This document shows, in pieces, positions 5,549-33,665 of a stretch of DNA of 33,665 nt. Each line of letters starts with the position of its first letter. Positions within the stretch are counted from its first letter, which is position 1. The DNA is from a virus, in the IMG/VR virus record IMGVR_UViG_3300029448_000189, positions 1 through 33,665 of that record. One strand, 5' to 3'. Below the pieces are notes generated by a model. That model worked only from the letters and a program-made list of their open reading frames with translations, searched no databases and had not been told where the DNA came from. The translations under genes and the position numbers were made by a program.

Positions 5549-5914
5549 CTAACTAACCGCCTTGAGACTTCTTTGTCTCTCTACAAACCATTCATTTAAT
5601 AACTTCATTGCTCCTGGACACATTATATAATCTCGCTTCCTCTTATCCTTCCCTACCTTCTTGCACATATACCCTCTCGCTACAAAGTCCTCTAACACCG
5701 TTGCCACCGTTGACCGACTCCCCATACTGCTCGGCAATAGTTTCACTATTGCTTCAAAATTAATGCTCTTGCTACTCGCGTCAGCAATAGCAACCTCTAA
5801 GACTAAAATCGTATGAAGCGGACTGGAAAACCAAAATGCAGTAAATCCTCTTTTTCTTCTACTCTTATAATACTGATCTCTTACACTCATCATTCTGTCT
5901 CTTAACTGTTTCAT
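5549..5914 (-). CDS. MarR-like winged-helix regulator, 121 aa
   Basis: The C-terminal half (SRSTVATVLEDFVARGYMCK, then KDKRKRDYIMCPGAMKLLNEW, about residues 66-111) matches the recognition-helix and wing layout of MarR-type regulators, including the basic wing KVGKDKRKRD. It has a good ribosome site (GGAGGTGA) seven bases before ATG 5914. It directly faces the 18-bp repeats at 6052-6123 and is the first gene leftward of them, so it is a good candidate to bind them and to act as lysogeny or early-gene regulator in the absence of a CI-type repressor. That role is inferred from position. Confidence 0.7.
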   Translation of the reverse strand: MKQLRDRMMSVRDQYYKSRRKRGFTAFWFSSPLHTILVLEVAIADASSKSINFEAIVKLLPSSMGSRSTVATVLEDFVARGYMCKKVGKDKRKRDYIMCPGAMKLLNEWFVERQRSLKAVS

Positions 5915-6009
5915 TTTATGTCACCTCCGATTTTACGTTTCATGTAATGATTTACTTACCGATTACAACCTAACATTATCCGTAAATATTACTGATACAT
6001 TTTACCACT

Positions 6010-6038
6010 GAGAGATGAGCCGACAGGCTCACTCTCTC
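6010..6038. other. Long hairpin next to the repeat cluster
   Basis: GAGAGATGAGCC pairs with GGCTCACTCTCTC around the loop GACA, giving twelve base pairs with a single bulged C. There is no T-run on either side, so an intrinsic terminator is unlikely. An origin element, a protein-binding cruciform or an RNA structure are possible. Confidence 0.6.
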
Positions 6039-6051
6039 TATTAGTCTAGTC

Positions 6052-6123
6052 TTGGATATATGGGTACCCCTATGGTCAATCATTGGGTATACGGGTACCC
6101 TGCTATTGGGTATATGGGTACCC
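6052..6123 (+). repeat. Three 18-bp repeats with nested palindrome (candidate operators or iterons)
   Basis: Copies are 6052-6069, 6083-6100 and 6106-6123, with consensus TTGGGTATAYGGGTACCC (first copy has TTGGATA at its start). Each contains the palindrome GGGTACCC and a second GGGTA half-site, so each copy is itself an inverted repeat GGGTA-N6-TACCC. Starts are 31 and 23 bp apart. They lie between the replication operon and the winged-helix genes. Confidence 0.85.
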
Positions 6124-6125
6124 AA

Positions 6126-6257
6126 TCAAGTATCCTTCTTTTTGTCTTTTTTAGGCTCTTTTTTAGTTTTTTTCTTACTAAATATCCTATCCCAATTATC
6201 CTCAAATATTTTCTTATCTATTTGTCTTGGTCGTTGGTCACTTCCCTTTCCATTCAT
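6126..6257 (-). CDS. Small basic phage protein, 43 aa (MGKGS-like)
   Basis: This ORF, found by hand translation, starts at ATG 6257 behind AAGGAG and ends at TGA 6126. The N-terminus MNGKGSDQRPRQIDKKIF followed by NWDRIFSKK matches a short protein type I recognise from many phages (usually beginning MGKGS..RP and containing NWDKIF). The tail is an Asp/Lys-rich run. It is the last gene of the replication operon, 12 nt after the primase-helicase gene, and its end borders the 18-bp repeats. The function is unknown. Confidence 0.7.
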   Translation of the reverse strand: MNGKGSDQRPRQIDKKIFEDNWDRIFSKKKTKKEPKKDKKKDT

Positions 6258-6269
6258 TTCATTTACTCC

Positions 6270-8129
6270 TTAGTCCCAATCGAAGGACTTTTTATTTCCA
6301 TCTAAAATTTCTAAAACCGCACCACGTCTAACCAATGTTTTGGTTGAATAATCTACGTTGCCAGAATTACTTTTAACTAGACTGGCTTTAACAACTGCCA
6401 TTCTGTCTACTTCAATACCTTGCTCTAGGCATATCTTCTCGCAGGTATCGTTGTCCGCTAACCACATGGCTATCGCAAACCTAACTGAATCAGTAATACT
6501 TGAAGCACCTCTTATCTCTGCTCTATGCGAAAGTGCATCATCTGAATCATTAGTAAGGGCAGATTTTGCCAAATGATGAACTGTGAGACAGGTAATACCC
6601 AGTCTTGCACTTATATTTGCACAATAACTACCCCATAATTGGCCAACTTCATTACTTGAACTAATATTTCCAGTCGTAAATGCTTGTAATGGGTCGAATA
6701 CAACCAGTTTTAAGTTTGGTATTGTCTTTAATTCTTCTACTAATTCAGTTGCTTGGGACGTAATCCCTTCTTCTCTTAATAAAATCATTGGTTCTTTTTG
6801 TTCTGGAATAGGAAATACATAAACGTCATACTCGGATTGAAAACGTAAACCTAATGGGTCTAACGATGCAATCCTTCTATGCACTTCACCAAGATCGTCT
6901 TCAGCTGCAAAAATTACAGTAGAGCCTTTTTGTTTTATGGTTTTACCCCACCAATCACCGCCAGTTGCAATACCTAAAGCTAATTGAATCATTGATAAAG
7001 ATTTACCAACCCCTCCAACTGCCGCGATAATTCCAGGTTTACCAAATGGAATGAAACTATCTACTAACCACTCTATTGGTTTTGGTTCTTCAACCAAGTT
7101 TCTAATAGCGTATTGTCTAATATTAAACTTAGACTCAACTAACTCTAACTTAACTTGGTCTAAGCCTTTCTCTAAATACAAATCATTAAAGTCACCAATA
7201 ATAGATGGCAATCTGGAAACTGCATTAGTAATACTGTTGACTACTTCATTGGCACATTTCTCACCAATCCCAGATGTATCGTTATCAAGTGCAATTATAA
7301 ACTTTGCACCTGTTATAGAACGCAATCTAGTACACGCAGAGACACAGAAATTTGCAGAGAATACCACCGCGACAGGTAAGCCTGTAGCTTCGTATATAGA
7401 GGCTCCTGTTGCGTATCCTTCACATAAAATAATTGTTTCTAAACTAGGTAATTCATGCGCCTCACAACCAATAAGAAAAACATTGCCTTTAACTTCACCA
7501 CCCCCAGCAAACTTTTTACTGCCATCTGGCATGATGTATTGAAGTGACTTTATTTGTGAAACTAATATTCCATTATCATTATTTCTTATGATAGAATACA
7601 CCCCGATTAATAGGTTTCCATTAATCGTTTTTAAACCATAATTTTTAATCTTTTTATTTGTGAGATACTTATGCTCTATAACTTCATTCGCACCAGCAAA
7701 CTTTTCTTTAACGTATACGGCAACTTGTTCATGTTGTATTTTCTTAGCCTCTTCTCTCCTCTTTTGTGCCTCTTCGAGCTTGGATTGTAATACCCTTTTT
7801 TGCTCGGCAGACATCTCATTAGGATTATAAGAGGTAAACTTGTTCTCTAAATTAGTACGCCAATTACCATAAACGCATACAAAGTTTTGATCTAACTGAT
7901 TGTACACATAATACCCAGAACGCTCACCACCTTTATCTGGTCGATGGTTAGGACCAGCACTTACAGGAACTCTAACTAAATTTCCTGTTGTATCTAAATA
8001 ATCAACTAACAAACCATGAGAACGCATCTCATTAATTAAATCAGCATTAGACTTGCTTGTATTACTAAAGGCATAGTTGTCATCTATAACAACGCCCTTA
8101 TCTCCATAAAATTGTGTTAAGTCAGTCAT
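6270..8129 (-). CDS. TOPRIM primase / RepA-like replicative helicase, 619 aa
   Basis: This protein would unwind DNA and may prime it at the phage replication fork. The start at ATG 8129 is preferred over ATG 8168 because it overlaps the upstream stop by only 8 nt. Visible parts: an N-terminal region with SGYYVY near residue 71 and a charged coiled segment (107-135); a TOPRIM domain with LCEGYA (E237) and ALDND (D282, D284); then a RecA-fold ATPase with Walker A AVGGVGKS (370-377) and Walker B LVVFDP (475-480), followed by HHLAKS (518-523) and RGASSITDSVR. There is no obvious CHC2-type zinc finger before the TOPRIM, so primase activity is less certain than helicase activity. It may work with the DUF669/SSB-like and Sak4-like proteins of the same operon. 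Confidence 0.9.
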   Translation of the reverse strand: MTDLTQFYGDKGVVIDDNYAFSNTSKSNADLINEMRSHGLLVDYLDTTGNLVRVPVSAGPNHRPDKGGERSGYYVYNQLDQNFVCVYGNWRTNLENKFTSYNPNEMSAEQKRVLQSKLEEAQKRREEAKKIQHEQVAVYVKEKFAGANEVIEHKYLTNKKIKNYGLKTINGNLLIGVYSIIRNNDNGILVSQIKSLQYIMPDGSKKFAGGGEVKGNVFLIGCEAHELPSLETIILCEGYATGASIYEATGLPVAVVFSANFCVSACTRLRSITGAKFIIALDNDTSGIGEKCANEVVNSITNAVSRLPSIIGDFNDLYLEKGLDQVKLELVESKFNIRQYAIRNLVEEPKPIEWLVDSFIPFGKPGIIAAVGGVGKSLSMIQLALGIATGGDWWGKTIKQKGSTVIFAAEDDLGEVHRRIASLDPLGLRFQSEYDVYVFPIPEQKEPMILLREEGITSQATELVEELKTIPNLKLVVFDPLQAFTTGNISSSNEVGQLWGSYCANISARLGITCLTVHHLAKSALTNDSDDALSHRAEIRGASSITDSVRFAIAMWLADNDTCEKICLEQGIEVDRMAVVKASLVKSNSGNVDYSTKTLVRRGAVLEILDGNKKSFDWD

Positions 8130-10279: not shown

Positions 10280-11014
10280 TTAATTATCCTCCATGGATTT
10301 ATAGGTTTCGCAAACTTCTTTGTGTGAACAGAATTTGCACCAAGTTCCAGCATTAAAGCTAGGCTCATCACCCATCGCTTCATCACAAGCTGGTTTCAAA
10401 ATATTCAATCCCCAGTCGACAAGATCAACTGCTTGAATATCCCAAGTTCTTATTTGCCCATCTTTATGAAAGGCTCTTTTGTTTGGTTGTACGATTGTCA
10501 TTTCAATGACTGTATCTTCATTGCCCCATCGTGATAGGCAACCTAGGGCGTAGCACATTAGCTGTTCATTCATCACAACATCTACTGCCCAAGCACCAGA
10601 CTTTAAATCACCAACAACCATTCTATTACCTTCTCCAAGGATGACTGCATCAGCAGTTCCCCAAAGGTCATCGTTTATATCTGGAGCATTTACTTTTTCT
10701 TCTACAAGTAATTTACCGTTAAGTTCTTCAGTTCTTTTATTTATATAATCAACATAGATTTCTGCCATGTCGATATCATCTTGCGTGATATCAAAACTAA
10801 AACCATCTACATCTACTGTTCTACCAAGATAATAGTCAGCTAATGTAATTCCCTCTAATCTATTTTTAAGTAAGGCTTCTACCATTTCGTGAGTAGAAGT
10901 ACCTCTAGCTGCTGCCATGCTACCTTTACGTTCCGCAGCTGCATTTATTTTTGCACTAGCAGGGCAACGAATAATTCTATTTATACTACTAGGAGATAAT
11001 ATCGCGTGTGACAA
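10280..11014 (-). CDS. Cas4/RecB-like PD-(D/E)XK exonuclease with four-Cys (Fe-S type) site
   Basis: This 244-aa protein has the RecB-family motifs in order: H42 (STHEM), GTADAVI with D122, VVGDLKSG with D136 and K138, and QLMCYA (Q151, Y155). Four cysteines are placed as in Cas4/AddB-type iron-sulfur nucleases: C17 near the N-terminus (RCPAS) and C226, C229 and C235 near the C-terminus (CKFCSHKEVC). This suggests a DNA exonuclease that makes 3' single strands for the Sak4-like annealase encoded just downstream. DUF2800-type phage proteins share this plan; this copy is shorter than many. No CRISPR array or Cas1/2 is present, so an adaptation role is not implied. Confidence 0.85.
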   Translation of the reverse strand: MSHAILSPSSINRIIRCPASAKINAAAERKGSMAAARGTSTHEMVEALLKNRLEGITLADYYLGRTVDVDGFSFDITQDDIDMAEIYVDYINKRTEELNGKLLVEEKVNAPDINDDLWGTADAVILGEGNRMVVGDLKSGAWAVDVVMNEQLMCYALGCLSRWGNEDTVIEMTIVQPNKRAFHKDGQIRTWDIQAVDLVDWGLNILKPACDEAMGDEPSFNAGTWCKFCSHKEVCETYKSMEDN

Positions 11015-11408
11015 GTCCGTACTCCTCTCTTATTAATGATGCAAATAGTTCCGTAGAAATATTCATTGCAACATTGAAATCTTCCATTTCAAATAAATTA
11101 TTTTTAAGTGCGTAAGTGTTAGCTATCATTACGCGCCAGTCTGATCTGTCAGCTCTAAACCATAAGCATGGTAAGAGTCTTACCTTCCTTGCTTGTGTGG
11201 TTGTTTGTTCCCAGAAGTTTTTTAAGTCTCCTGGTGTAATGACTTTTCTTCTTTTAACTTCGATAGCAAAACCATCTAAGCCTAGTAAGTCGTGGCCACC
11301 ACCAAATGTTTGTGAGTAGTTAACTTCTAATTGAATACCTAAAAGTTCTTTGATTTCATCAATAACTTCTCGCTCACCTCTGCGACCTTTGTTTCGTGCG
11401 TTGACCAA
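10989..11408 (-). CDS. Small PD-(D/E)XK nuclease, Holliday-junction-resolvase-like
   Basis: The 139-aa protein begins with NKGRRGEREV (E12), then has GGGHDLLGLDG (D40) and AIEVKRRK (E50, K52), the order of acidic and lysine residues expected of a phage PD-(D/E)XK endonuclease, often annotated as a junction resolvase. It could trim branched replication intermediates before packaging. It overlaps the Cas4-like gene by 26 nt and follows the AlpA-like gene by one base, in the early recombination operon. Confidence 0.75.
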   Translation of the reverse strand: MVNARNKGRRGEREVIDEIKELLGIQLEVNYSQTFGGGHDLLGLDGFAIEVKRRKVITPGDLKNFWEQTTTQARKVRLLPCLWFRADRSDWRVMIANTYALKNNLFEMEDFNVAMNISTELFASLIREEYGLVTRDIIS

Positions 11409-11409
11409 A

Positions 11410-11592
11410 CTACTCTCCGACTTGTGATGTTTCTTCTAGCTTTATGATTTCTTCAAACTTGTATCTAACTTGACCGCCTAGCTTTACATAAGATGGTCCT
11501 TTGCCATGTGAACGCCAGTTCTCTAAAGTTCTTGGAGACATTCCCCATCGCTCAGCAAGTTCGTTTTGATTTAAAAATATTTTTTCTTCCAT
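11410..11592 (-). CDS. AlpA/excisionase-like helix-turn-helix protein, 60 aa
   Basis: The pattern FLNQNELAERWGMSPRTLEN, then WRSHGKGPSYVKLGGQVRYK, is a complete small HTH_17 (MerR-like/AlpA) domain with the typical winged end (RYKFEEI). Such proteins act as excisionases or as early activators. It is the first gene of the leftward early operon, and its promoter must lie in 11593-11755. With an integrase encoded nearby, a role in excision control is plausible; it could equally regulate its own operon. Confidence 0.8.
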   Translation of the reverse strand: MEEKIFLNQNELAERWGMSPRTLENWRSHGKGPSYVKLGGQVRYKFEEIIKLEETSQVGE

Positions 11593-12304: not shown

Positions 12305-13384
12305 TTAATTAGACATCATTATCTTGGTCATATAGTCGCCTACATTTTGCATTTCTTTGATTGCTCTTGGCTCTCTTACTTTACGATAACGTAAAACAGC
12401 AGACATGCTCTTATGACCAGATAGTTTCATTAATTCTGGTAGTTCCATAATCTCACCAGCCATAGTACAAAAGTTATGTCTTAGATCATGCAACCTTAGT
12501 TCTGGTCTACCAATCTTTTTAGCTAGTTGTTTCCACATCTTGACAGGGTAATCTACATCTAAAATGTATTCTCCCTTTCTCTCTAGCTTATTAATAACCA
12601 TCATAGCTTGATTGCTTAGATAGATGACTCTATCTTCATTAGTCTCATGGTCAGTCTTATGTTCGCTTAGAACTATCTTGTTATCTTTTAAATCAGACCA
12701 CTTGGCACTGCCTATCTCACTCTTACATCTACCGCCAGAGTGCATACAAAGTTCTATGTAATCTAAAGAGCTAACAAAGTTAGGTCGAACAGTTTGTCTC
12801 TTAATGTTTATTTGTCTTTGTAATTCAGCAAACTCTTTGTCTGATATTTCATTCTCACTAATCAGCTCTTTGTTTAGTTTAATTTTACAAGGATTTATTT
12901 CTACCAGTGATAATGCTATCGCATGGTTATAACAACCAGATATCATTTGAACAACTCTGTTAGCAGTATAAGAACCTCTTTTAGATATTTCTAAATGTAA
13001 TCTTGTAATATCACCCCTATTTATATCTGTTAGATTTCTTTTACCTAAATCATTCTTAACATCTTTATCCCACATTCTTACATACTCACCAGGCTTACCG
13101 TTCTTGTTAGGCATAGCAACTCTTCGTTTGTTTTGTATTAACTTATCAATGTAATATTCAAACGCTTGATTTAAAGTTTCTCCGCCTCTGGTATTTAATG
13201 GATCAATACCTTGTGCAACTTCACCAAGTATTTGTTGTGCTTTGTTTCTTGCTACATTAATTGGTATGTCTCTACTACCAAGAGTTAGTTCTCTCTTCCT
13301 TCCATTAATGCGATAGAAGACTCTATAAGTTTTTTCTGTGATTAATAAATTGTTTACCTTTGTATCTCTTTTATATCTAGCCAT
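12305..13384 (-). CDS. int: Tyrosine-recombinase integrase, 359 aa
   Basis: This enzyme should recombine attP with a host attB to establish lysogeny. The start is ATG 13384 with GGAGGT eight bases upstream; the frame also contains a TTG at 13399 that is part of this ribosome site. The N-terminal arm-binding domain has FYRINGRKRELTLG, and a core-binding region spans about 70-165. The catalytic domain shows R219 (SGGRCKSE), K243 (SEHKTDH), H299 and R302 (LHDLRHNF), H324 (LSGHKS) and the nucleophile Y333 (VLRYRKV), so all key residues are present. The tRNA-Glu fragment at 13553-13590 lies just upstream, the expected attP neighbourhood. Confidence 0.93.
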   Translation of the reverse strand: MARYKRDTKVNNLLITEKTYRVFYRINGRKRELTLGSRDIPINVARNKAQQILGEVAQGIDPLNTRGGETLNQAFEYYIDKLIQNKRRVAMPNKNGKPGEYVRMWDKDVKNDLGKRNLTDINRGDITRLHLEISKRGSYTANRVVQMISGCYNHAIALSLVEINPCKIKLNKELISENEISDKEFAELQRQINIKRQTVRPNFVSSLDYIELCMHSGGRCKSEIGSAKWSDLKDNKIVLSEHKTDHETNEDRVIYLSNQAMMVINKLERKGEYILDVDYPVKMWKQLAKKIGRPELRLHDLRHNFCTMAGEIMELPELMKLSGHKSMSAVLRYRKVREPRAIKEMQNVGDYMTKIMMSN

Positions 13385-13399
13385 AACTCGTACCTCCAA

Positions 13400-13552
13400 G
13401 CAGAGTCGCCATATAGTCGACAGTTGATGTCGAAATGACGTGTATTTTAATTACCTATTCAGTAGATTATAAATCGAATCTTGTAAAGAAAACAAGGGTT
13501 TTTAGGGAAATAATGTACAGTCGAGAAACTGTGTGATGGATAATATTTAAGA
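13400..13552. promoter_or_regulatory. Integrase upstream region with inverted repeats (attP flank)
   Basis: Two short perfect inverted repeats are visible: TCGACA-GTTGA-TGTCGA (13417-13433) and ACAGT-CGAGAA-ACTGT (13517-13532). They may bind integrase, an excisionase or a repressor of int. The integrase promoter must lie here or upstream of the tRNA fragment; no strong consensus box was found. Confidence 0.5.
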
Positions 13553-13590
13553 ATGAAAACCAGGTGTCCTAACCGATAGACGAAGGGGTC
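13553..13590 (-). other. attP: 5' half of a tRNA-Glu(TTC) gene: candidate attP core
   Basis: Read on the minus strand, these 38 nt follow the tRNA-Glu pattern from base 1: acceptor strand GACCCCT, TC, D arm GTCT-ATCGGTT-AGGAC, A26, anticodon stem CCTGG, and loop TTTTCAT with anticodon TTC. The match breaks at position 39: the next bases (TCTTA) cannot pair with CCTGG, where CCAGG would be needed. It is therefore not a working tRNA but a piece captured from a host gene, beside the integrase. Carrying the 5' rather than the 3' half is unusual. Confidence 0.85.
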
Positions 13591-13602: not shown

Positions 13603-14076
13603 TCAGCCATTTATTGCAGCTTTTTTAATACCAGAAGTCGACTTATTTTTGCCTTGTCGACCATCAGTCGCCAAAATAATCGACTCCATAGCTTCTTTTA
13701 AACTATCAATAGAATTAGTTGATTTCATAATTTCGTCCTTTATCGTGATTTGTGCAGTTTGACAATCAGAAAAGGCTTTGAAGCATATAGTCTGGTATTC
13801 AAGATTAACCATTGCGATTATATCTATTTCATTCTTTTTATAATGTCTTCCTGTGGTGGTAATGCCTTTGCGAATATCAAACCGCCAATTCTTTTTTCTC
13901 TTCTCTATATGTGTGACTGTTTTAACTTGGCATCTATATAGTTTGTGTTTCCATTCAAAGATTACATCGGCATGGGATGTATGAGGCATTATTGTAACGG
14001 TGTCTGATTCTCTCGCCAGAACTGAGCAGGTTAGGTATTCACCACTCCTACCTATTCGCTCCGATCTGCGTGTCAT
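13603..14076 (-). CDS. PD-(D/E)XK endonuclease-like protein, 157 aa
   Basis: The pattern SERIGRSGEYLTCSVLA (E13), HADVIFEW (D37) and YRCQVKTV (Q50, K52) is that of a PD-(D/E)XK endonuclease in which Gln replaces the usual acidic residue before the lysine. The rest is basic and beta-rich, with a Lys/Gly-rich tail. It begins 11 nt after the last structural gene with no good ribosome site, and stops 12 nt before the tRNA fragment. It is thus the last late-strand gene before attP, the classic spot for cargo genes. A role in host DNA breakdown, exclusion of other phages or homing are all possible; none is shown. Confidence 0.7.
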   Translation of the reverse strand: MTRRSERIGRSGEYLTCSVLARESDTVTIMPHTSHADVIFEWKHKLYRCQVKTVTHIEKRKKNWRFDIRKGITTTGRHYKKNEIDIIAMVNLEYQTICFKAFSDCQTAQITIKDEIMKSTNSIDSLKEAMESIILATDGRQGKNKSTSGIKKAAING

Positions 14077-14087
14077 GGTATGTCATG

Positions 14088-16049
14088 TTAGTTTAGTAAA
14101 CCTTCCTCTACTGATGGAACTAATGGTTGTACTGCTAACATTCCAGGTGTTACACCTTGAGGCAATTGTTGCATTGACTCTGGTAAAAACTGTTTAAATC
14201 TATCCATCAATTCTTTAACTTTAGCTGTATTAGATTGACTTGCCTCTTTAACCAATTGTTTATTAAATGGGGTGGCTAGAAATTTATTAACCAAATATAG
14301 CATACCTATTCCAGGAACTCCTGCACCCGCACCTGTTGCTCCAATAACAGCAGATGGGCCAATATTTGAGGCTGCCCTCAAAGCACCTGATCTCATTATA
14401 AATGTGTTTACATCTGGCAAGACTTCTGGGAATTGTTTTAATGCTCCTAAGAAGTTTGATAAATCTTTAATACTTGTATTTTTGTAAGTTTTTAATAATT
14501 CTTCTGTTGCTTCATATTTCAAGCTGCCAGGGTTTGATAAACCAAGCTCATCAAATAGTTTATTAAAGTCTCCACCATCAGGTTTAATGTATTTTTTAAA
14601 CACATCGTCTAAATAACTACCAGCTAATCTATTAACATTATTATCACCAATTAAATTTCTTAACTCTCTTACAGCTTCTGGACTTTTATTTTGACCAAAA
14701 GTTCTGTTATATAAATCCTCTATTCTTGCTGTTGGAGGTCTGCCAATACCAGGCCTTAAAGCCCCTCTTCCCAATGCTTTTTGGAACTCTTTACCAGTTT
14801 TGTTTTCAACTTTTTGCATAAATTGATTAAACATTTTGTCACCAGCAGCATACAAGCGACCAGCTTCGTCACTTGGATTTCTTAATTGTTTTTTCATTGT
14901 ATCTAGTAAAGCATTTGATGTTCTATAAGCATAATTATTTGGAACATCTGATTTAGCTGGATCATATTTTTTTGATAAATCTGTTAATCTTGTATCTAAA
15001 GCTCTTACATCTACAAATTTTATTTTATTTCCTTTATTTAATTTTAGTTCATCAAGTAAATCTACTATCTCTTTTGGAGCATCTGTAAATTTGCTTGGTG
15101 AGGTAACTCTATTTGCGGTATTTGCTAAAGGATTCATATCAAAAAAATTACCCTTTGCCCTATTTATAGAGTCTGCTTTTTTATAAATTTTATTATAAGA
15201 TTTTTTCCAAATATTAAAATTTTCTAACCCAACCTCTTTTATTAAATCTGACCTTTCAGACTCCGTTAATGGTTTAAGTTTTGCAGATGGAGATATTCTT
15301 TTTTCTAATGCTGTATTGACTTGTGAAAAAACATTTTCTAATTGTTTTCTTCCAGGATTACCAACCAAAGGCATCCTGCTTGTTAAATTATATGAACCTT
15401 GTATTAATGGGCTTGATGAGGCTTGCCCTAAAGATAGTTCTATACCTTCATTGCCTAATATTTTTGCTTTTTGAACAGCATCATCTGTTATACCAAGTCC
15501 TCTCTCAACAAGACCAACGCCTTTCTCAGAACTAGGTATTGATGTTTTGATTTTGTCAGATACTTTTTGACCACCCTGAATAGTCTTTCTTATCAAGGGT
15601 GAAAGTGTTTTACCGACAACTGGTACTGCTGCTGTTAATCCAGAGTCAATAGCACCTGTTATCGCCGCATCTGTTAATCTTTCTTTTGTTGTTGGAGATG
15701 GCATATCAGGAGATAATAAATCACCCAAAAAATCAGATGCTAAAGACATGGTAGCTGAACCACCACCAGCACCAGCTACAGCCCCAGGAGGGCCGCCAGC
15801 AAGTCCACCACCAATAGCTCCGCCAATACCGCCTATAACTTCAAGAGTTGGCTCTACCCATTTTGGCAATCTTCCAGGATATTCGTTTTCACCAATAAGA
15901 CCAAGTTCAATACCAGCTTCCCTTGTTTTGGCATAATATGTTTTAGCGTCTATTTTACCTTCTTTTAGATAACGACTACCTTCTAATTTTACTTGTTCAA
16001 AAAGTTTTTTAGCTTCTTCTTTTTGTTTAAGCTCTTGTAATGTAGCCAT
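14088..16049 (-). CDS. Large ejection-type internal virion protein, 653 aa
   Basis: This is the largest of three consecutive proteins at the tail end of the structural operon, in the place of podovirus DNA-ejection proteins that leave the head with the DNA and form a channel. Two Gly/Ala-rich hydrophobic stretches can be seen, one near residues 71-105 (IGGIGGAIGGGLAGG) and one near the C-terminus (IGATGAGAGVPGIGMLYLV). The region between is long, basic and helical. Length and composition fit an ejection protein (P22 gp16/gp20-like in role), but similarity to a named family was not established by eye. Confidence 0.65.
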   Translation of the reverse strand: MATLQELKQKEEAKKLFEQVKLEGSRYLKEGKIDAKTYYAKTREAGIELGLIGENEYPGRLPKWVEPTLEVIGGIGGAIGGGLAGGPPGAVAGAGGGSATMSLASDFLGDLLSPDMPSPTTKERLTDAAITGAIDSGLTAAVPVVGKTLSPLIRKTIQGGQKVSDKIKTSIPSSEKGVGLVERGLGITDDAVQKAKILGNEGIELSLGQASSSPLIQGSYNLTSRMPLVGNPGRKQLENVFSQVNTALEKRISPSAKLKPLTESERSDLIKEVGLENFNIWKKSYNKIYKKADSINRAKGNFFDMNPLANTANRVTSPSKFTDAPKEIVDLLDELKLNKGNKIKFVDVRALDTRLTDLSKKYDPAKSDVPNNYAYRTSNALLDTMKKQLRNPSDEAGRLYAAGDKMFNQFMQKVENKTGKEFQKALGRGALRPGIGRPPTARIEDLYNRTFGQNKSPEAVRELRNLIGDNNVNRLAGSYLDDVFKKYIKPDGGDFNKLFDELGLSNPGSLKYEATEELLKTYKNTSIKDLSNFLGALKQFPEVLPDVNTFIMRSGALRAASNIGPSAVIGATGAGAGVPGIGMLYLVNKFLATPFNKQLVKEASQSNTAKVKELMDRFKQFLPESMQQLPQGVTPGMLAVQPLVPSVEEGLLN

Positions 16050-33150: not shown

Positions 33151-33665
33151 TTATCCCACTCTGATTATTCTTGATGTCAAGGGTTTCTTGAAATTATACC
33201 CTAAAAAGTTCTCGCCACCACTAAAACTTGCAGCGGAACTTGCCATCGTTAGTGCAAGTGCGTCAGCTTTATCGGGAGACTTAACACCTCTTTTTTTCAT
33301 TTCGTCCTTAGACTCTATTTTTATTTTTCCAGTTGATGTATATTTATAACTAGGTGCTGCCAATTCTGATACAAGCTCATCATCATTAGGAAGTCGGCAA
33401 TTACGCAGCACCAACCAATCCTTGATTGCGAACCATAATTCAGCTCGTAAGTTTAAATAGTTTTTCTTAGTCGATGGTGCTTCAGCAACATTAACTCCTC
33501 TTACTGGTAAATTTTGTTCAGCTAGTCTATCTACAACTCCACTACCAAGACCAATTACATCTATAAGTATTTCTTGTGGTTGTTCTACGACTGTACTGTC
33601 GTCATATAAATTTTTAACTGCACCGCATAATTGCATTAAATCCATTGATTTGAAAGTCTTAATTT
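33151..33665 (-). CDS. terL: Terminase large subunit, C-terminal nuclease part (continues from position 1)
   Basis: This is the continuation of the TerL frame from positions 1-1116; bases 33568-33665 duplicate 1-98, and the non-redundant part is 33151-33567 (138 codons plus stop). The RuvC-like nuclease domain shows ILIDVIGLG (D375 of the whole protein) and the C-terminal signature SPDKADALALT, which carries the last metal-binding acidic residue. Together with GLDVARFGGD in the other part, the catalytic set is complete. The stop lies 4 nt before the portal start. Confidence 0.95.
   Translation of the reverse strand, partial: IKTFKSMDLMQLCGAVKNLYDDSTVVEQPQEILIDVIGLGSGVVDRLAEQNLPVRGVNVAEAPSTKKNYLNLRAELWFAIKDWLVLRNCRLPNDDELVSELAAPSYKYTSTGKIKIESKDEMKKRGVKSPDKADALALTMASSAASFSGGENFLGYNFKKPLTSRIIRVG
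33568..33665. repeat. Terminal direct repeat, right copy (contig overlap)
   Basis: These 98 bases are identical to 1-98 and mark the closure of the circular map at 33,567 bp. Confidence 0.95.

Follow-up and report, generated by a model that had tools for sequence, protein, structure and literature searches.

What would happen to a host tRNA gene if a phage integrated into it through the 5' half of that gene rather than the 3' half, and which promoter would then express the tRNA? This question is raised by a virus record from IMG/VR (IMGVR_UViG_3300029448_000189), which was analyzed over its whole length of 33,665 bases (the window). Because it carries a 98-bp direct terminal repeat (positions 1 to 98 and 33568 to 33665), the record is probably a complete genome; it appears to have been opened within the terminase gene. 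Pfam families identify an SU10-type portal and capsid, and by portal comparison the nearest cultured pelagiphage that we found is HTVC106P (33.7%), which has no annotated integrase. Near the integrase gene of HTVC019P, no match of at least 16 nt to the host tRNA library was detected. No complete tRNA gene was found in the window, which thus carries no full tRNA of the target isotype.

The first-pass annotation had read 38 nt of the minus strand (13553 to 13590, with tRNA base 1 at 13590) as tRNA-Glu(TTC) from base 1 to the end of the anticodon loop, and had looked to bacterial genomes for a gene with this exact 5' half. Both expectations were confirmed. From 13590 down to 13553 the segment reads GACCCCTTCGTCTATCGGTTAGGACACCTGGTTTTCAT and comprises the acceptor 5' strand, the D arm, the anticodon 5' strand and the full anticodon loop; it is letter-perfect against bases 1 to 38 of the complete tRNA-Glu(TTC) genes in L001, L002 and L003. 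Exact matches to this core occur in only three genomes of the GTDB genome collection, all of one order. Identity between phage and host ends at base 38, and on the 5' side of base 1 they have a single T in common, which is chance. A search of IMG/VR with a 35-mer of the core recovered 24 further viral contigs that contain the 38 nt unchanged within variable flanks. Judged from the sequences, the match is far beyond chance, because all 38 nt agree, the 24 further contigs retain them and relatives have a tRNA-Pro counterpart at this place. The core sits in the gap between a nuclease gene and the integrase gene (int), the reading frame of the latter starting about 154 nt after it; the core is identical to the tRNA from base 1, and the 3' half is absent. 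A classical 3'-half tRNA attP is ruled out, since the core equals tRNA bases 1 to 38. RNA folding of the core region gave nothing stable except the tRNA parts.

The core also points to a host. One of the three core-matching genomes is titled Pelagibacteraceae, and G001 and G003 are listed in the order of G002. The anticodon-stem variant of the phage copy, CACCTGG, was found in 3 of 162 genomes of this order, the same three as the core matches, with CATCAGG in the main clade and CATCACC in a further group; the core therefore indicates a narrow host clade. Through its attachment site, the phage is apparently linked to SAR11-type bacteria (Pelagibacterales), and an exact core of this kind allows a sharp host prediction. 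The earlier suggestion that the host has one tRNA-Glu gene also agrees with the genomes: each core-matching genome has a single copy, and a general tRNA-Glu pattern had a single match in 121/162 genomes of the order and two matches in 0/162. Among the typed tRNAs, G001 and the G003 contig of L003 each have one tRNA-Glu. The targeted tRNA-Glu is thus apparently the only one of the host. Of the 81 genomes of this order that matched tRNA-Pro(TGG), 80 have a single copy.

The int gene beside the core (12305 to 13399, minus strand) encodes a complete tyrosine integrase, as annotated from the sequence (Pfam Phage_integrase, 7e-11; arm-binding domain PF13356, 2.5e-8; PHROG integrase, 1e-38). The alignment retains the catalytic R, K, HxxR, H and Y together with the N-terminal arm-binding domain, and integrases of Aeromonas and Pseudomonas share 23 to 29% identity with it. 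Translation may start at TTG 13399 or at the conserved ATG 13384, the ATG being more likely. Arm-type sites lie on both sides of the core, all on the minus strand: on the int side (13404 to 13434) GGCGACT at 13404, GTCGACT at 13415 and TTCGACA at 13428, and on the nuclease side (13636 to 13686), within the 3' end of the nuclease gene, GTCGACT at 13636, GTCGACA at 13655 and GGCGACT at 13666. The genome holds five GTCGAC sites, three of which cluster in a 361-bp stretch around attP, with members on both sides of the core, and the related TGGCGACT is likewise present on both sides. A small HTH protein encoded at 11410 to 11592 on the minus strand (HTH_17, 7e-9; PHROG excisionase families, about 1e-7) is a probable excisionase by these family matches. 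Its gene adjoins a second PD-(D/E)XK nuclease gene (10989 to 11408; PDDEXK_15, 7e-14).

Related phages carry the same arrangement with a different tRNA. Bases 1 to 27 of tRNA-Pro(TGG), the 5' part of tRNA-Pro of the same bacterial order, were found in at least 45 contigs with related integrases, in the place and orientation of the window core. A few of these cores carry a D-loop variant; variation was seen only at positions 16 and 17 (CC, TC or CT), and the TC form also exists in the host tRNA-Pro of G004. In every relative examined, family-specific repeats flank the core on both sides, at about -52 to -94 and +156 to +190; the repeats (CGCGACAAATA, CGGATGGGTA, TTGACAGATGGG, ATGACGGATATA) differ from those of the window, but their distances are similar. 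In the integrase tree the Pro type forms one side of a supported branch. The integrases of the window and L162, both of Glu type, share 70% identity in the core-binding and catalytic domain and 43% in the arm domain, whereas the window and L046 (Glu versus Pro) share 49% and 96%, respectively. In these sequences the core type tracks the core-binding and catalytic domain, and the arm repeats track the arm-binding domain; the integrases of the window (12305 to 13399), L046 and L162 appear modular, with the arm-binding and catalytic domains exchanged independently. The core match, the position beside int, the arm repeats and the relatives together support the proposal that the core is an attP of the 5'-half kind.

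It could be argued that the core is only a decayed remnant of a phage-encoded tRNA-Glu gene, since many phages carry complete tRNA genes and 15 viral contigs contain a complete tRNA-Glu of the main-clade type. We consider this very improbable. All of the 24 further half genes stop at the same base, which decay would not produce, and they sit at a constant place relative to int wherever int is present, with arm repeats around them wherever examined. Decay would not switch the tRNA either, yet the relatives carry a tRNA-Pro 5' part instead, and among the free-phage relatives none was seen with a full tRNA-Glu at the spot of the core. As a control, the main-clade anticodon-stem variant was searched in IMG/VR and gave 15/15 complete phage tRNA genes and 0 half genes; half genes are therefore not a generic decay product.

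Our main reading, with a probability of about 0.86, is that the segment forms the core of a working attP, which the lambda-type tyrosine integrase would recombine with the tRNA-Glu gene of a small Pelagibacterales clade, the tRNA being rebuilt behind the nuclease gene. The shared block, from tRNA base 1 to the 3' edge of the anticodon loop, would be the mirror image of the usual 3'-half site. A 5'-half attP needs identity with the tRNA from base 1 through the overlap region, and further identity is not required; since the Glu core stops at the final base of the loop, a crossover in the 7-nt anticodon loop fits and is the most likely one. As the Pro core extends only just past the D stem, the Pro-type crossover would fall at or before base 27; a candidate is the 7-nt D stem-loop stretch GCCTGGT between inverted GCGC arms, inside which the variation at positions 16 and 17 falls. 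Bacterial integrases are reported to use the anticodon arm, the T arm and the 3' end of tRNA genes, and for an archaeal integrase cleavage in the D loop was suggested as possible (PMC8371274). The D-arm crossover implied by the tRNA-Pro type would lie outside the three sub-locations reported for bacteria. Besides the negative searches for junctions, for a close integrase in the order, for a repressor and for a promoter just before the core, which are given below, one contig counts against the main reading: L031 (IMGVR_UViG_3300046170_000088; int at 6001 to 7092) combines a Glu-type integrase, 99% identical to that of the window, with a tRNA-Pro core, and it may be either a natural mosaic or an assembly chimera joined in the shared arm-domain region.

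Insertion by such a crossover would place the host promoter, tRNA bases 1 to 38 and the int leader at one end, facing int, and the nuclease gene, 12 nt and the full tRNA-Glu on the same strand at the other. This geometry, int behind the host promoter and the restored tRNA behind the nuclease gene, had been anticipated in the first-pass annotation and agrees with recombination logic. It follows from the 5'-half geometry that the restored tRNA would need transcription from the element, and in the simplest case the nuclease transcript would run on from the phage side and end in the rebuilt tRNA. The stricter version, that in lysogens the sole tRNA-Glu of the host (tRNA-Pro for the relatives) is made only as the tail of that transcript while the displaced host tRNA promoter drives int, is doubtful; if it were true, viability would be tied to continuous prophage gene expression.

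The nuclease gene (13603 to 14076, minus strand) encodes a PD-(D/E)XK-like protein (phrog_5018, 6e-12; PF11645, 2.6e-4, below its cut-off), and 12 nt separate its stop codon from tRNA base 1. This spacing measures 5 to 23 nt in almost all relatives, and one group of relatives without the nuclease has a gap of 86 to 107 nt. We rejected the nuclease as a defence gene on finding no PADLOC match and no meaningful solved-structure match. Directly upstream on the same strand, across a gap of 11 to 12 nt, lies the gene for a 653-aa protein (14088 to 16049, minus strand), for which Pfam and PHROG family searches gave no match. Between the core and int, a promoter-like element, TTGTTT-18-TATAAT (13466 to 13495, minus strand; top 1.6% of windows), faces int, and such an element is present in the int leaders of most relatives; int could therefore be expressed without the host promoter. 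Ahead of the core, the highest-scoring promoter-like pair is TCGACT-17-TGCAAT, whose score is reached by about 21% of random phage windows. Host tRNA promoters also score modestly by this measure (median, 26%), so the absence of a promoter before the core does not follow. Of the earlier promoter claims, the extended -10 at 13625 to 13633 is present in its letters, but it is neither conserved in relatives nor above background; the phage-supplied promoter postulated for the restored tRNA-Glu could not be shown upstream of the core by promoter scoring.

These results bear on two further explanations. A promoter within the nuclease 3' end, either TGGTATTAA or TCGACT-17-TGCAAT, might have been acquired specifically to drive the restored tRNA, and the latter pair or a one-letter variant of it indeed occurs in most Glu-type contigs and in L103 and L104. 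However, the pair is absent from L152 and from the divergent Glu-type L162, its TCGACT belongs to an arm site, TGGTATTAA is not conserved, and the 21% background argues in the same direction, although with host promoters at a median of 26% that test is weak. This explanation therefore seems unlikely. A better, although still tentative, alternative is that the attP is functional but that integration is short-lived or harms the cell: with no adequate promoter for the rebuilt tRNA-Glu, integrated cells would die and no stable lysogens would form. The searches for lysogeny are consistent with it. No prophage was found in 162 genomes of the order, where the integrase search returned no close relative (best, 27%); no repressor was recognised among the genes scanned; the target is single copy; and no clear promoter lies before the core. 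Furthermore, T7-like cyanophages integrate in 0.3 to 1% of infected cells and gave no stable lysogens (PMC8776855). On the other hand, the integrase, arm sites, excisionase-like gene and host-matched core are kept in dozens of contigs, which argues for a used and selected site, and in the cyanophage P-SSP7 the half tRNA has a strong promoter-like element before it (top 0.1%), so a missing promoter is not a general cause.

The promoter swap proposed from the sequence thus stands in its geometry, but integrated copies, looked for with IMG/VR patterns and in the 162 genomes, were not found. The 35-mer core pattern and the tRNA-Pro attR-style pattern gave no attL or attR junction in IMG/VR, and an int-side pattern, which was too strict, gave 0 matches. 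As no integrated copy was found, we infer rather than observe the swap and the control of the essential tRNA; on the sequence evidence, prophage control of an essential host tRNA is a well-founded prediction.

Sites in the 5' half of tRNA genes are rare but known. A passage in PMC6563490, citing Zhao and Williams 2002, describes recombination with tRNA 5' parts as considerably less frequent; the cited bacterial study concerns 5'-part recombination too, but by its title a single element and not a marine phage family using two tRNAs. Recombinant bacterial tRNA genes keep their original promoter with very few exceptions (PMC8371274), in agreement with the background assumed in the first-pass annotation. 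The pTN3-like archaeal integrases are a documented 5'-half exception: their attB is the tRNA 5' half and the rebuilt tRNA is expressed from a promoter of the element (PMC8371274). Unlike the window, where attP lies outside int on its upstream side, these are suicidal integrases that are split on integration, and the int promoter drives the tRNA.

The T7-like cyanophages P-SSP7 and S-TIP37 are closer in that they too are marine and use the first half of a host tRNA gene as attP, here 39 bp of tRNA-Leu; their integration was shown by junction PCR and in S-TIP37 depends on int and attP (PMC8776855). They belong to phage groups unrelated to the window phage. In P-SSP7 (L243) the tRNA-Leu(TAA) 5' half follows int on the same strand (5860, region 5769 to 6039) and is preceded by a near-consensus TTGTTA-16-TATAAT, a candidate promoter of the restored tRNA. 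There int is upstream of the half tRNA and the restored tRNA follows int, whereas in the window int is downstream and the restored tRNA would follow the nuclease gene. Mycobacteriophages with tRNA-dependent lysogeny likewise take over the supply of an essential host tRNA at attB, but their core is about 10 bp, the tRNA is not rebuilt and a full tRNA is carried, whereas the window carries none and would rebuild it (PMC10865867). In integrated ICEKp1 the host tRNA promoter reads into int, as expected for the window; the insertion point of ICEKp1, however, lies downstream of that promoter, and it is the terminator of the tRNA that is displaced, so that the tRNA keeps its own promoter (PMC13023037).

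The window system would work in the manner of these examples; what is new here is the orientation, the phage group, the target range and the well-populated family: a whole Pelagibacterales-linked phage family whose 5'-half sites correspond to two tRNA genes, each single-copy in the host. Should these sites work in the way their sequences indicate, an essential tRNA of a major ocean bacterial group would come under phage control, and losing the host promoter may have to do with how seldom prophages of some marine phages are seen. Two contigs of 94 to 98% integrase identity, L040 and L043, are without a tRNA core upstream of int; their arm sites seem to have decayed and the integrase of L043 carries a frameshift, which suggests lineages that are losing integration.
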